DNA of 22,774 nt, taken from a virus. The notes beneath the pieces are model-generated. The model was not told the origin of the DNA. It ran no database searches and was given only the letters and a program-made list of their open reading frames with translations. The stretch is taken from the IMG/VR virus record IMGVR_UViG_3300030117_001130, positions 7,006-29,779 of that record; one strand, given 5' to 3'. Shown here one piece after another: positions 689-21,694 of this stretch (its first letter is position 1; every line of letters starts with the position of its first letter). Position numbers and translations under genes: made by a program.

Positions 689-717
689 AGGGGGCTTTTG
701 GCCCCCTCTTTTATTTT
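689..717 (+). terminator. Rho-independent terminator between converging genes
   Basis: A 7-bp stem (AGGGGGC at 689-695 with GCCCCCT at 701-707) is followed by a T-rich tract at 709-717. It begins 6 bases after the stop of the rightward gene. The stop of the facing leftward gene lies in the T tract, so the hairpin may serve both directions; the leftward T-run is weaker. Confidence 0.9.
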
Positions 718-1192
718 AGAACTTACCTAGCCATCGTGCTATGTGTGACACAAACGGTAACAAGGTAGCTGCCATAAACAAGTTCACACCCGTGTGTGCC
801 ATTGCAATACGCAATGTATCTCCTTTAGGCATACCATCTGACACAAACAAACCTGCCAGCCAGATTGTTCCTGTTGTGCCTATGTTCGCGCCTAACACTG
901 CAGCAATCGCTGCTGGTAAAGGCAAGGCACCAGAGGCAACCAGTGCAATAATAGCTGTAGTAGACAGGCTAGATGACTGCCACAGCAGTGTCATTATGAT
1001 ACCACCTGCAAACATATACAAGGGGTTGCCCAAGAACCATGAAAGATGTTCTATGTTGCCCATAGATTTCATGCCACCAGAGAACGTCTTCAAGCCTACG
1101 TAGAATATAATTAAACCTACTAAGGCTGTTATTACAGGGTTTCCTAAGTCCATCCTACTTACTTTCTTCCATAGTTTCTTTCCTTCCGTCAC
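716..1192 (-). CDS. Single-repeat Na+/phosphate cotransporter (NptA/PNaS-like) membrane protein
   Basis: The 158-residue hydrophobic protein has about four or five membrane segments (roughly 18-38, 56-72, 77-100, 104-116, 128-150). It carries the two signatures of the Na/Pi cotransporter repeat: QSSS at 72-75 and GANIGTT at 101-107, then the family's late R-x-A-x-AH element with N137. Full-size family members have two such repeats in inverted topology; here there is only one, so a working transporter would need to dimerise. The start is GTG at 1192, overlapping the MazG stop, with AGGTGA upstream; ATG at 1153 is an alternative. It is the last gene of the leftward operon. Sodium-driven phosphate uptake during infection is inferred. 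Confidence 0.85.
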   Translation of the reverse strand: MTEGKKLWKKVSRMDLGNPVITALVGLIIFYVGLKTFSGGMKSMGNIEHLSWFLGNPLYMFAGGIIMTLLWQSSSLSTTAIIALVASGALPLPAAIAAVLGANIGTTGTIWLAGLFVSDGMPKGDTLRIAMAHTGVNLFMAATLLPFVSHIARWLGKF

Positions 1193-1572
1193 CTGTTGTC
1201 ACCTGACCCTGCCAGAGTGCCACGCTTCTTCCTATCAGCTAGTTTCTCCAAGTTCTTCTCCATAATGTGTCCAAGGTCCATGTCAAGTTCTTCAGCAAGG
1301 ACAGCACAGTACCACATTACATCCCCAATCTCGTACGCAATCTGAATCTTTCTTGCCTCATATTCATCCGGGGGTGCGCCGTCGCGTATAAACTTCTTAA
1401 CCTTATTTGCTATCTCACCTGCCTCTCCCGTAAGGCCAAGAGTAAGATACTCCATAGCCTTGTTCTTTGGGAAGATTGCAGTGTCACACGCTGCTATTTG
1501 ATATGCTGTGCCGGTTATACCGTACATGTATTTCTCCTTCATCCAAGTTTTAGCTTCTTGCTCCAAGTCCAT
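1189..1572 (-). CDS. MazG-like nucleotide pyrophosphohydrolase
   Basis: The 127-residue all-helical protein has the MazG metal-binding pattern E50-x-x-E53, 27 residues, then E81-x-x-D84. Family members hydrolyse (d)NTPs or modified nucleotides to monophosphates. In marine phages MazG has been proposed to clean the nucleotide pool or adjust host (p)ppGpp; which applies here cannot be read from sequence. I chose ATG 1572 over the longer frame beginning at 1653 because GGAGA lies 8 bases upstream and the extra N-terminus would run through the preceding gene. It overlaps the RMF-like gene end by 23 bases and the transporter start by 4, indicating coupled translation. Confidence 0.85.
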   Translation of the reverse strand: MDLEQEAKTWMKEKYMYGITGTAYQIAACDTAIFPKNKAMEYLTLGLTGEAGEIANKVKKFIRDGAPPDEYEARKIQIAYEIGDVMWYCAVLAEELDMDLGHIMEKNLEKLADRKKRGTLAGSGDNR

Positions 1573-5851: not shown

Positions 5852-6082
5852 TTAGTTGCTTCGCCATAGCGGAATGCCAAAGGACGTTCTGCTTGTTTGA
5901 TAAGCTGTACCTAATGCTTTCATCTCCTCACGGATGAGAGCATCTGCCTCATTACGTGCCTCTATTGCGGCCCGTAGTCCAGCAGTTTTACGTTCACGAT
6001 ACTCTTTACGTAAGTCGTCAAGTTTCTGCTCAGTAAGTTTAATTTCCTCTGCTAGAGCATCTATTTCAATCGTTTCATCCAT
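5852..6082 (-). CDS. Small coiled-coil protein
   Basis: The 76-residue protein is almost entirely helical, with a heptad-like charged helix from about 5 to 57 (ALAEEIKLTEQKLDDL and onward) and a short conserved-looking tail ending in PLWRSN. The strong ribosome site AAAGGAG lies 7 bases before ATG 6082. It lies between two nuclease genes and may be a DNA- or protein-binding accessory, but no family is recognised and that is only context. Confidence 0.7.
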   Translation of the reverse strand: MDETIEIDALAEEIKLTEQKLDDLRKEYRERKTAGLRAAIEARNEADALIREEMKALGTAYQTSRTSFGIPLWRSN

Positions 6083-6095
6083 TTAGTTCTCCTTT

Positions 6096-6839
6096 CTATT
6101 TCCATATTTTCTTAGCTTCTTCTTTCATTTTACTACCCCATGTCCATGAATCAAAATTAGGGTAGACTAAAGAAGCCAACTCATACTTATCATTGCTAAT
6201 AGATAAAAATCGTTGTATCGTGTGTGCAACTTTTTCTAGTTGCTTTTTATACTCCGACAAATTATCTAGCGTAAATTTCCTATGATCTTTGGGGGAAGCA
6301 AAGAATAAGTCTATCTTGTTATTTGGATAGGCCATAGAATATAGTGCCATCTGTCTTTTTTGCGCCTCTGTTGGTTCTGCTGGCATCCTAGTTGTTGTCT
6401 TTAAGTCCACTATTCTGTCCTTAAACCTAAAGTCTATGTAGCCAAGTATTGGTATGGACACATCATTAAGTTTAACTTCGACCTTTTCCTGATAAGTTTC
6501 TAGATTATCATAGTCAAACGATTTGTCAATGACTTCTCCAAAACTATTTAGCGTCTTCATTTCTTTTTGAGCAGACTTAGTATCCAAAGCAATCATAGAT
6601 TCAGCGCAGAGGGTCATAAACTTTGCCTCTAAATTAGCGTAATCCATCTCCCCTTCCGAAAACTTTTTTTCCAACGCGAACTCTAAGGCATTACCTCTGA
6701 CTGCCGCCGCGCCACTAGGTGATTTTACTTTGAACAGATATCTCAAGACCCACATAGGTGGGTCATTGATATATGTGTTTATGCTACTTGGAGACAGCCA
6801 GTTTATACCATGTGCATTGAATGGATCATTGCTTAACAT
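6096..6839 (-). CDS. RecB/Cas4-like PD-(D/E)XK exonuclease
   Basis: The 247-residue protein shows the RecB-type nuclease motifs in order: LSPSSINTY (15-23), RGNALE (48-53), GYIDFRF with D136, IVDLKTT with D145 and K147, and QMALY with Q163 and Y167. Such proteins are metal-dependent exonucleases; in phages they often act as the recombination exonuclease beside an ssDNA-binding protein, which fits the preceding gene. The start directly abuts the previous stop (TAA-ATG). The gene is AT-richer than its neighbours: 22 of 60 G/C at 6241-6300 against 31 of 60 at 7321-7380, suggesting a different origin. Confidence 0.88.
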   Translation of the reverse strand: MLSNDPFNAHGINWLSPSSINTYINDPPMWVLRYLFKVKSPSGAAAVRGNALEFALEKKFSEGEMDYANLEAKFMTLCAESMIALDTKSAQKEMKTLNSFGEVIDKSFDYDNLETYQEKVEVKLNDVSIPILGYIDFRFKDRIVDLKTTTRMPAEPTEAQKRQMALYSMAYPNNKIDLFFASPKDHRKFTLDNLSEYKKQLEKVAHTIQRFLSISNDKYELASLVYPNFDSWTWGSKMKEEAKKIWK

Positions 6840-12934: not shown

Positions 12935-13786
12935 CTATCTCCTTCCCATGCTCCACAGTGCAGTGGATGTCTCTATCAACTCGTCATGCCACATGACATT
13001 CTTTCTGAACTCATGTGGGATACCACAGTATCCGTAGTGTGTGCCAGCAATCATACCGGCAACCGCACCCACCGTGTCACTGTCGTGACCGCGATTGACT
13101 GCTTTGATAACACAGTCCTCAAAGGTATCCGTAGTTTGGAATGCCCACATAGCTGCCATGTATGTCTCGACAACGTAGCCGCCTGACATCACCTCTTTGC
13201 GAGGTATATCCAGACTATGCCTGAACTTTTGATACTTGTCAAGTGGGCCACAGTAGTACAGTTCTTCTGCCAACATTGTGCCATACTGTACACATATTGG
13301 TGCCGCATGTGTCAGCAGTGTCTGCTGCGTAGCAAGTTGTATAAGTTCTTGCCTGTTCATAGCGGCCAAGACTACGGCAGCAGTTCGCATCAGCGCACCG
13401 TTGCCAGCAGACTTAGGGCTAGTGTCTCCCTTATATGGGCTAGTTGGATGTTGAATGTAACGCTCCAACGCACGGACAGTTGTTGTGCCAATGTCAAAGC
13501 ACTCACCACGAGGGATGAACTTACCATCCCTGTACCATGCCACGAAGTTATCCATGATAGCGTTAGGATCAAAGCCACCCTTGTCAAGTATTGCTTTGCA
13601 CATGGCGAGTGTCATGGCTGTATCGTCAGTCCACTCACCAATGTCTACATCATGGAACCCGCCCTTGTGGTACTTGGTTATGTAGTCTTCTGGTTCTCTG
13701 GCGTCTAGGAACTCTAGAGGTGCGCCAAGCGCATCCCCTATTGCAAGTCCGATCATCATACCATTAGCTTGATCTATTGATTGCAT
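12935..13786 (-). CDS. ADP-ribosylglycohydrolase (DraG/ARH family)
   Basis: The 283-residue protein has the family landmarks in order: GLAIGDALGAPLEF (13-26), WTDDTAM with T53-D54-D55, SAGNGALMR (126-134), H160, and GHDSDTVGAVAG with D235/D237/T238. The three acidic clusters bind two Mg2+ ions. Family members remove ADP-ribose from arginine, serine or nucleic acids, or cleave related metabolites. In a phage it may reverse ADP-ribosylation by host toxins or tune host proteins such as nitrogenase reductase; the target is not readable. It lies two bases before the integrase start, in the same operon. Confidence 0.93.
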   Translation of the reverse strand: MQSIDQANGMMIGLAIGDALGAPLEFLDAREPEDYITKYHKGGFHDVDIGEWTDDTAMTLAMCKAILDKGGFDPNAIMDNFVAWYRDGKFIPRGECFDIGTTTVRALERYIQHPTSPYKGDTSPKSAGNGALMRTAAVVLAAMNRQELIQLATQQTLLTHAAPICVQYGTMLAEELYYCGPLDKYQKFRHSLDIPRKEVMSGGYVVETYMAAMWAFQTTDTFEDCVIKAVNRGHDSDTVGAVAGMIAGTHYGYCGIPHEFRKNVMWHDELIETSTALWSMGRR

Positions 13787-20178: not shown

Positions 20179-20477
20179 GCGTGAAGTATCGTGGCATTAC
20201 ATTTCCCGGTTACAACCGGCCCATTGCTTCTAACCGTGAAGGTAAGAAGAAAATGGTGCTGGCTAAAAAGGGTGACAAAGTAAAACTAATTCATTTCGGT
20301 GCAAAAGGGTACGGACACAACTATAGTGCAGCCGCCCGTAAATCATTTAGAGCCAGACACAAGTGTGACACCGCCACTGATATCCTGTCTGCTCGTTATT
20401 GGGCATGTCGCACCTTGTGGGGTGGGGCAGGTAAACCTAAACAGTCCAGCCCCAAATCTAGAAAAGGAAAGTACTGA
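20175..20477 (+). CDS. Basic conserved phage protein
   Basis: The 100-residue basic protein has the core MVLAKKGDKVKLIHFGAK (27-44), GYGHNY, then SFRARHKC (57-64) and SARYWACRTLW (72-82), and a Lys-rich tail. The combination F-G-x-K-G-Y, R-x-R-H-K-C and YWAC occurs in a family of small phage and large DNA virus proteins whose role is unknown. Cys/His spacing could bind a metal. The start overlaps the preceding stop, and its stop overlaps the next start by one base. Confidence 0.72.
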   Translation: MSVKYRGITFPGYNRPIASNREGKKKMVLAKKGDKVKLIHFGAKGYGHNYSAAARKSFRARHKCDTATDILSARYWACRTLWGGAGKPKQSSPKSRKGKY

Positions 20478-21694
20478 TGGCTGCAAAAAAGTTTAAATTT
20501 AAAAACCCCAACACTGGGATAGTTGAAGAACGCCCTGATACTCCGTATTTCCGTAATCTAGCAAAAAAGATGCAGGAAAAATACAACAAGCTATCAGATA
20601 AAGAGAAGGCTGCTATTAAGGCTCGTATACAAAAACGACAAGCAAGGCAGGCTGACACGGATAAGAAAAAACAAGAAGTCAAAGAAGGTAGGGCTGCTGG
20701 ACTTACCATGACAGAGATTCGTGCAAAGCGCATGAACATATCTGCTGATGAGTTAAAGAAAAGACAAATTGCTACTCTGCTTGGTATGGCAGAGGGCATG
20801 TCTTTGTTTATTCCCGGTGGTGTAGCAATCAAAGCAGGACAGCTTGCATTCCGTGGTAAAAAAGGCGCGGATGCAGTTAAAGCCATTAAGAATATAGTTA
20901 AGGGTAAGCAACCTGCATCTAAGACAGCACCGAAAGCAGCACCCAAGCCAGCAGCTAAAAAGGCTGCACCTAAAGCAGCACCAAAGCCAGCAGCTAAACC
21001 TACAAAGGAAGGTGCAGCATCAAAGCGTATGCCAAAAGCAGCGGCTCCCAAAGCTGCACCTAAAGCGGCAGCTAAAAAGGCAGCACCAAAGGCTGCAGCT
21101 AAGAAAGCTCCACCTAAGACAGCGACTAAACCCCAAACAAAAACGCAGGCTAAAACGGCTGCTAAAAAGGCTGCACCTAAGACAGCGGCAAAGCCTAAAT
21201 CTAAAAGGCGTCAGCTTATTGAAAAGGTAGGTCCGTTGGTTGCGGCTGGTACTATTCTTGGCGGCGGTGTTGCTGTTCAAAAACTAATAGACGGTAAAGC
21301 AAAAGCGGGTACTCCACCTCTAGGTGGTCCTAGTGATGGTCGCAAAAAGGGACCACCTAAAGGTCGTCCACCTTTGGGTGGGCCTAGTGATGGTCGCAAG
21401 AAGGGACCGTCTAAAGGTCGTCCTCCGTTGGGTGGTCCTAGCGATGGTCGCAAAAAGGGACCGTCTAAAGGTCGTCCACCTTTGGGTGGGCCTAGCGATG
21501 GTCGTAAGAAAAGAACTAACATTACTGCTGGTCCAAATACAGGCTTTGGTCCGAAGGGTAACATCTTCCCGAAGAACGCGGAAGATCGCGCACGGCTAAT
21601 GAAGCTGTATGGTGGCACTGGTAGTGCTGCTGCTAAAGCTGCTGCGGCTGGTACACAAGGCGCACTCAAGAGGGGAAAAAATAATGGCAGCTAA
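20477..21694 (+). CDS. Histone-H1-like Lys/Ala/Pro-rich protein with 18-residue repeats
   Basis: This 405-residue, extremely basic protein has a helical Lys/Arg-rich N-terminus (1-95), a hydrophobic segment (about 100-118) and a long Ala/Lys/Pro tract (144-244) with PKAA/AAKK motifs like the tails of histone H1 or AlgP. A second hydrophobic segment follows (251-268), then four tandem repeats of PPLGGPSDGRKKGPSKGR (280-327 and on), and an Ala-rich end. Such tails bind DNA by charge, so DNA condensation or packaging is plausible but inferred. Two hydrophobic segments are unusual for a free DNA-binding protein and suggest membrane or capsid contact. Confidence 0.75.
   Translation: MAAKKFKFKNPNTGIVEERPDTPYFRNLAKKMQEKYNKLSDKEKAAIKARIQKRQARQADTDKKKQEVKEGRAAGLTMTEIRAKRMNISADELKKRQIATLLGMAEGMSLFIPGGVAIKAGQLAFRGKKGADAVKAIKNIVKGKQPASKTAPKAAPKPAAKKAAPKAAPKPAAKPTKEGAASKRMPKAAAPKAAPKAAAKKAAPKAAAKKAPPKTATKPQTKTQAKTAAKKAAPKTAAKPKSKRRQLIEKVGPLVAAGTILGGGVAVQKLIDGKAKAGTPPLGGPSDGRKKGPPKGRPPLGGPSDGRKKGPSKGRPPLGGPSDGRKKGPSKGRPPLGGPSDGRKKRTNITAGPNTGFGPKGNIFPKNAEDRARLMKLYGGTGSAAAKAAAAGTQGALKRGKNNGS
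21314..21511 (+). repeat. Four tandem 54-base repeats inside the H1-like gene
   Basis: Units begin at 21314, 21368, 21422 and 21476 (the last is cut to 36 bases). Each encodes PPLGGPSDGRKKGPSKGR or a one-residue variant. Most base differences between units are silent (for example cta, ttg and ttg for Leu), so the peptide is conserved while DNA drifts. Confidence 0.9.

Follow-up and report, generated by a model that had tools for sequence, protein, structure and literature searches.

A half-size Na+/phosphate cotransporter homologue kept by selection in marine phages

A gene that encodes one complete repeat of the Na+/phosphate cotransporter family is kept intact by selection in at least two kinds of marine phage. 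It was studied in a stretch of 22,774 nucleotides, referred to here as the window, which is part of the virus record IMGVR_UViG_3300030117_001130. The best explanation seems to be that copies of the short chain assemble with each other, probably in antiparallel pairs, and form a phosphate carrier coupled to Na+. We infer the self-assembly, the arrangement, the coupling, the substrate and the direction of transport, and this explanation is put forward tentatively, with a confidence that stays a little short of even.

Identity of the gene and of its repeat

The protein encoded near the left end of the window (Table 1) matches the Pfam profile PF02690 (Na_Pi_cotrans) over residues 29-140, with 58 bits against a cut-off of 29.1 (E 1.3e-15). 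The profile score lies above the curated cut-off and the QSSS and G(A/S)NIGTT segments are both present, which makes the protein a member of this domain family. The sequence-only reading had taken QSSS and GANIGTT as marks of a Na/Pi cotransporter repeat, and the profile match together with the two motifs bears this out. With the NCBIfam model NF037997 the score is slightly below the cut-off (48.2 bits versus 50). In the PDB, a phmmer search matches SLC34A2a (9z60, E 5.1e-18), of which two stretches, one from the first and one from the second repeat, align to overlapping parts of the phage protein. The protein is one complete Na_Pi_cotrans repeat with QSSS and GANIGTT, and the two inverted repeats per chain of the SLC34 / NptA type are not found in its 158 aa. 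This length is close to that of a single repeat of NaPi-IIa, in which RU2 spans residues 335-489 (PMC6325988), and the shortest bacterial frame with two repeats, of 302 aa, is about twice as long.

The TGA of the mazG gene directly upstream overlaps the GTG start of the transporter gene, the two sharing the letters GTGA. The letters of this junction are alike in 17 of the 20 loci of group 1, the closest relatives of the window described below, while L065, L072 and L073 differ. For mazG itself, the ATG at 1572 is probably the start rather than the listed ORF start at 1653, because several relatives seem to carry a stop within the extra N-terminal part.

Table 1. Position of the half-size transporter gene, its predicted parts and mazG in the window
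Feature	Position	Strand	Basis
Half-size (single-repeat) Na/Pi cotransporter homologue, 158 aa, GTG start	716..1192	-	ORF list; PF02690 E 1.3e-15; AF2 model pLDDT 85.6
TM1 (residues 19-44)	1061..1138	-	AF2 model helix
Putative re-entrant hairpin HPa/HPb (residues 57-86)	935..1024	-	AF2 helices 57-71 and 74-86 with a break at QSSS; hairpin by analogy with the NaPi-II model described in PMC6325988
QSSS motif (residues 72-75), hairpin tip	968..979	-	Sequence; 174/175 different complete proteins
TM2 (residues 92-117)	842..919	-	AF2 model helix
GANIGTT motif (residues 101-107), within TM2	872..892	-	Sequence; GANxGTT 175/175
TM3 (residues 125-156)	725..820	-	AF2 model helix
mazG, directly upstream of the transporter gene	1189..1572	-	PF03819 E 3.1e-8; phrog_229

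An AlphaFold2 monomer model built from 90 alignment rows (pLDDT 85.6, pTM 0.74; an earlier model from 20 rows was poor, with pLDDT 68.5) contains the helices listed in Table 1. Their order agrees, in the model, with TM1, hairpin, TM2 and TM3 of one NaPi-II repeat as laid out in PMC6325988, and the break between residues 71 and 74 coincides with QSSS. Three long helices and a helix pair broken at QSSS point to an odd number of membrane crossings, which suits an inverted pair. With this model as query, no hit with E below 0.001 was obtained by Foldseek in PDB or BFVD, and no VIA-align score exceeded Z 6.2; an isolated repeat may be too small, or its packing too open, to be compared in this way. 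Since neither program gave a meaningful match, the assignment to the fold rests on sequence.

The human NaPi-IIa numbering used for the site residues is in part presumed. In a hand reading of the SLC34A2a alignment, QSSS and the threonine pair of GTTGT (T106/T109) align with Q417, S418, S419, T451 and T454, the residues given for the Na3 site of NaPi-IIa (PMC6325988). N137 also aligns with a residue named for NaPi-IIa in the same paper, and at the positions of the Na1 residues T200 and Q206 an ungapped reading by hand places W111 and V117.

Search for a second repeat

A PF02690 search of the record to which the window belongs (34,858 bases, perhaps incomplete) returns a single match. The same search over whole virus records at E <= 10 gives exactly one match in 22/22, 16/16 and 18/18 records, that is, in 56/56 records of up to 177 kb, none of them classed as at least 90% complete. 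Only one of the two usual repeats is present, as the sequence-only reading had it, and this is a true single-repeat form; a second repeat elsewhere in the genome, which had been named as evidence to the contrary, was not found in these 56 records. No second PF02690 copy was found in any of the 315 viral-type loci that were fetched either. The other hydrophobic ORFs of the window, picked by crude hydropathy in the search for a second repeat, are all antisense to or inside likelier genes.

That the search finds second repeats where they are present is shown by bacterial genes, which give two matches. Two phyla were covered by these controls; the expected hosts, Proteobacteria and Bacteroidota, lie outside the sample. 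In the first, the phylum of the L082 genome, 19 of 101 genomes have a PF02690 match, in frames of 355-721 aa in every genome except one (L082, see below), which holds the only short frame in this set. In the second, the phylum of G039, 48 of 61 genomes have matches, nearly all of them paired, in frames of 302-634 aa. The two short exceptions in this second set are damaged genes: in G166 the match stops 60 bases short of the contig end, so that the gene is cut, and in G170 the frame is broken.

The absence of a second repeat in the phages is therefore strongly indicated, and it is not final because no searched record is classed as at least 90% complete. This completeness, and the size of the window's own record (34.9 kb), leave room for the idea that the phage has a second repeat at another place in its genome, either too divergent to be recognized or located in the missing part of incomplete records. 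We consider this improbable in view of the single match in 56/56 records at so permissive a threshold, of the bacterial second repeats that the same search detects, and of the positions of the other hydrophobic ORFs of the window.

The exceptional short frame L082 belongs to a Chloroflexi MAG and is counted among the 315 viral-type loci. Its neighbours look phage-like, and it is probably a phage contig that was binned with a bacterium. Its half-size transporter gene (5962-6456) adjoins a GMP reductase-like gene, as does that of the large viral contig L086.

Spread, selection and phage types

A scan of viral contigs with the window protein showed that 549 of 567 candidate stretches encode a relative, and the best 80 were fetched. 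Three more scans with more distant members yielded 504/548, 103/151 and 553/571 stretches in overlapping sets, from each of which again the best 80 were taken. Complete frames were found in 307 of the 315 loci, some of which repeat a contig, and they encode 175 different proteins, with lengths of 142-199 aa and a median of 160. All are single-repeat proteins, a single repeat being the rule in this family. The window protein has no match in 50,697 records of isolate phages (tblastn). A protein of group 3, a more distant set of relatives, gives weak matches in 12 of these records (below 40% identity, best 4e-5), which are named after Staphylococcus, Listeria or faecal phages. Among plasmids, the window protein has no match at E <= 10, and the group-3 protein matches nine records, of which the two that were opened have genes of 540-554 codons.

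The half-size repeat is a working gene under selection, as is evident from its low dN/dS and from the two motifs that are kept. For 141 pairs of group-1 genes with dS > 0.05, the median dN/dS is 0.042 and the maximum 0.10. QSSS is kept in 174 and GANxGTT in all 175 of the different complete proteins, and the loss of ion-binding residues in relatives, against which the sequence-only reading had warned, is not observed in these motifs. A truncated host gene or a pseudogene, acquired by chance, might be suspected from the presence of a single repeat only. The chance of this is negligible, and it is refuted by the selection (dN/dS 0.042) and by the spread of the gene over hundreds of viral stretches, with frames that are complete in 307 of 315 loci.

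The window record is that of an HMO-2011-type podovirus. The criterion for this type is a family A DNA polymerase with a partial DnaJ central domain (PMC9038755). The polymerase in the window has a DnaJ-like insert (PF00684, E 2.3e-5) at residues 289-329, between the exonuclease and polymerase matches; its score of 25 bits is under the cut-off of 32.7 bits, and the CXXCXGXG motif is visible in the translation. Helicase, primase-like protein, integrase, class II ribonucleotide reductase, MazG, endonuclease I and ADP-ribosyl hydrolase are all present, a gene set that fits the published description (PMC9038755). The gene is phage-encoded, as had been supposed, in view of the record type and the DnaJ insert. 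Several window genes (mazG, the reductase, the polymerase and others) are shared by 20 of the first 80 loci, which are of the same HMO-2011 type and constitute group 1.

The remaining 60 of the first 80 loci, as well as the 80 loci of the first of the three further scans, have few or no genes in common with the window. A sample of their neighbours (10 proteins from five loci) is T4-like and comprises the major head protein (phrog_138), the tail sheath (phrog_23), a UvsX-like recombinase, an SbcC-like protein and an NrdA-like reductase, and a family B DNA polymerase is also found among the sampled neighbours. Judged by these neighbours, the half-size gene is also present in T4-like myoviruses. 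Eight further loci with a more distant version of the gene carry a ribonucleotide reductase 57-65% identical to that of the window, which makes more than one transfer of the half-size gene between phage types probable.

Of the 25 families that occur most often as neighbours within 6 kb, not one is shared by the three groups of loci. No conserved phage partner is visible, since the neighbours differ between podoviruses and T4-like myoviruses. In group 1, the transporter gene adjoins mazG and lies near genes of nucleotide metabolism. Nor is a general set of phosphate-stress genes apparent, since PhoH occurs in 2 of 29 virus records and PBP_like_2 (PstS type) in none of the 29.

Some other genes in these surroundings may be mentioned in their own right. 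An ADP-ribosylglycohydrolase gene lies at 12935-13786 (-) of the window (phrog_6572, E 1.2e-62), and an ADP-ribosyl hydrolase is reported for five HMO-2011 subgroup I genomes (PMC9038755). At 20477-21694 (+), the window encodes a protein of 405 aa with a high content of Ala, Lys and Pro, in which a stretch like PPLGGPSDGRKKGPSKGR occurs about four times in nearly identical form and for which a profile search gave no strong family match. In a T4-like contig (L028:2850-4838), the match of the NrdA-like reductase is followed, in the same frame, by a thioredoxin-like match (phrog_22).

Possible assembly, origin and relation to known systems

The two repeats of NaPi-II are inverted relative to each other, with the substrate site close to the axis of symmetry between them (PMC6325988), and in bacteria and animals RU1 and RU2 form a pseudo-twofold site within one chain. 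The phage protein would correspond to one such inverted-topology repeat of the Na+/phosphate cotransporter fold, consisting of TM1, a re-entrant hairpin with QSSS at its tip, TM2 with GANIGTT, and TM3. As one repeat has three crossings, two opposite copies could rebuild a NaPi-II-like site. The chain would thus join itself in the inner membrane of the host, two copies in opposite orientations would restore the pseudo-twofold site, and the assembled carrier would move phosphate, or a similar anion, together with Na+ during infection. The failure to find a second repeat in these phages makes it seem most likely that the chain joins itself. Phosphate transport we infer from homology; the family member YjbB of E. 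coli is annotated as a putative phosphate exporter.

The distribution of charges bears on the orientation of the chain. The window protein has seven Lys/Arg residues on the N-terminal side and four on the other (bias +3), and leans towards N-in. The bias is positive in 168 of the 175 proteins. The other seven (L230, L231, L246, L257, L260, L262 and L265) lean the opposite way (-2 to -4) and all lack a basic N-terminal tail; they offer natural material for tests of membrane orientation. When 22 bacterial two-repeat proteins are counted in the same way, the means are -1.6 (RU1) and +0.6 (RU2) and the values overlap widely; as a topology test the count was rejected, since it does not cleanly separate the two repeats of these proteins. 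Among Fluc proteins, dual-topology singletons are balanced in charge (PMC3755343). The charge count is unhelpful to the antiparallel idea and, not being calibrated, it is inconclusive.

Two readings in which the chain keeps one orientation draw on this bias. In one of them, copies in the same orientation would form a homo-oligomer that acts as an anion or cation leak, or has another role in infection such as the exclusion of rival phages or the timing of lysis, and not in coupled phosphate transport. The scarcity of other phosphate genes alongside (2/29 and 0/29 records) would be in line with this as well. We regard it as unlikely: the conservation of QSSS and GANxGTT points rather to the binding site of a transporter, and the group-1 gene adjoins mazG, near genes of nucleotide metabolism. 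In the other reading, which we likewise take to be rather unlikely, the protein would pair with a membrane protein of the host, for example its two-repeat Na/Pi transporter, and alter or block it, a role for which the lack of a visible phage partner also speaks. However, podoviruses and T4-like myoviruses, with their different neighbours, would presumably not encounter one common partner throughout, and a plain blocker would not need ion-site motifs that are kept almost without exception. The self-assembled carrier is preferred to both.

With regard to origin, the half-size form could be a lineage older than the duplication or the product of the loss of one half. In a tree of 42 rows, the viral repeats (100/99), the bacterial first repeats (99/91) and the bacterial second repeats (99/91) constitute three separate groups. 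In a tree of 56 rows, which includes SLC34 and more bacteria, the viral repeats are placed with SLC34 repeat 2 at weak support (91/63) and the second repeats no longer form one group. Duplicates (L166, L171, L172, L173) and the split gene L179 were omitted from both trees, and the larger one also omits L184, because of its long branch, and L190, L192 and L194, with fewer than two usable repeat matches. With their long branches and a narrow bacterial sample, the trees give no verdict between these two origins. It is conceivable, and we suggest it with reserve, that the Na/Pi fold, which is of the elevator type and contains hairpins, exists in marine podoviruses and T4-like myoviruses as a natural transporter with a single repeat, active as an antiparallel homodimer, and that the lineage of this form may even predate the duplication.

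If the short protein works alone, widespread ocean phages would bring into their hosts a phosphate or anion carrier of their own, half the usual size. Inverted-repeat transporters are thought to have arisen from small genes, the products of which formed upside-down pairs before fusion took place (PMC3755343; PMC6805155). A single half for which no second half is found suggests that copies join, and makes this long-standing idea on transporter evolution testable. If the half-size protein works alone, the fusion step itself could be tested directly, by comparing one repeat and two repeats with the same motifs.

We know of no earlier description of a natural half-size form of the Na/Pi fold. A literature search by title and abstract, with most subscription journals and preprints outside its scope, found no paper on the half-size form or on its occurrence in T4-like phages. 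The gene itself has been noted before, and what is described here is a new structural variant of a known family. In 2022, a PF02690 gene, named as a Na/Pi cotransporter, was described for eight genomes of HMO-2011 subgroup I (PMC9038755). It is very probably the same gene, as it belongs to the same phage group, some members of which have an ADP-ribosyl hydrolase. In the part of that report available to us its half size is not remarked on, and the occurrence in T4-like myoviruses is an addition of the present work. Of the description as an unusual auxiliary gene, given from the sequence, one half stands, 'unusual' being at odds with this earlier report and with the presence in hundreds of viral stretches (549 of 567 candidates).

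Viruses of algae also encode sodium/phosphate symporters, but these have 459-534 aa and 9-10 TM segments, resemble algal phosphate permeases and, as described in PMC6163359, are not half-size. The Fluc channels and SMR transporters, dual-topology homodimers (PMC3755343), resemble the phage protein in that a short chain from a single gene makes up half of an inverted-repeat arrangement. They have other folds, however, and Fluc singletons are charge-balanced while the phage family mostly is not, and the phage dimer is only proposed. The closest likeness is to the Na/Pi cotransporter family itself (PF02690; SLC34 / NaPi-II, NptA, YjbB), with which the phage protein shares the sequence of the repeat, the QSSS and G(A/S)NIGTT segments, the length of one repeat and the match to both repeats of SLC34A2a. 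It differs from this family in having one repeat per chain instead of two and no PhoU domain, and in forming a clade apart from the RU1 and RU2 of the sampled bacteria.
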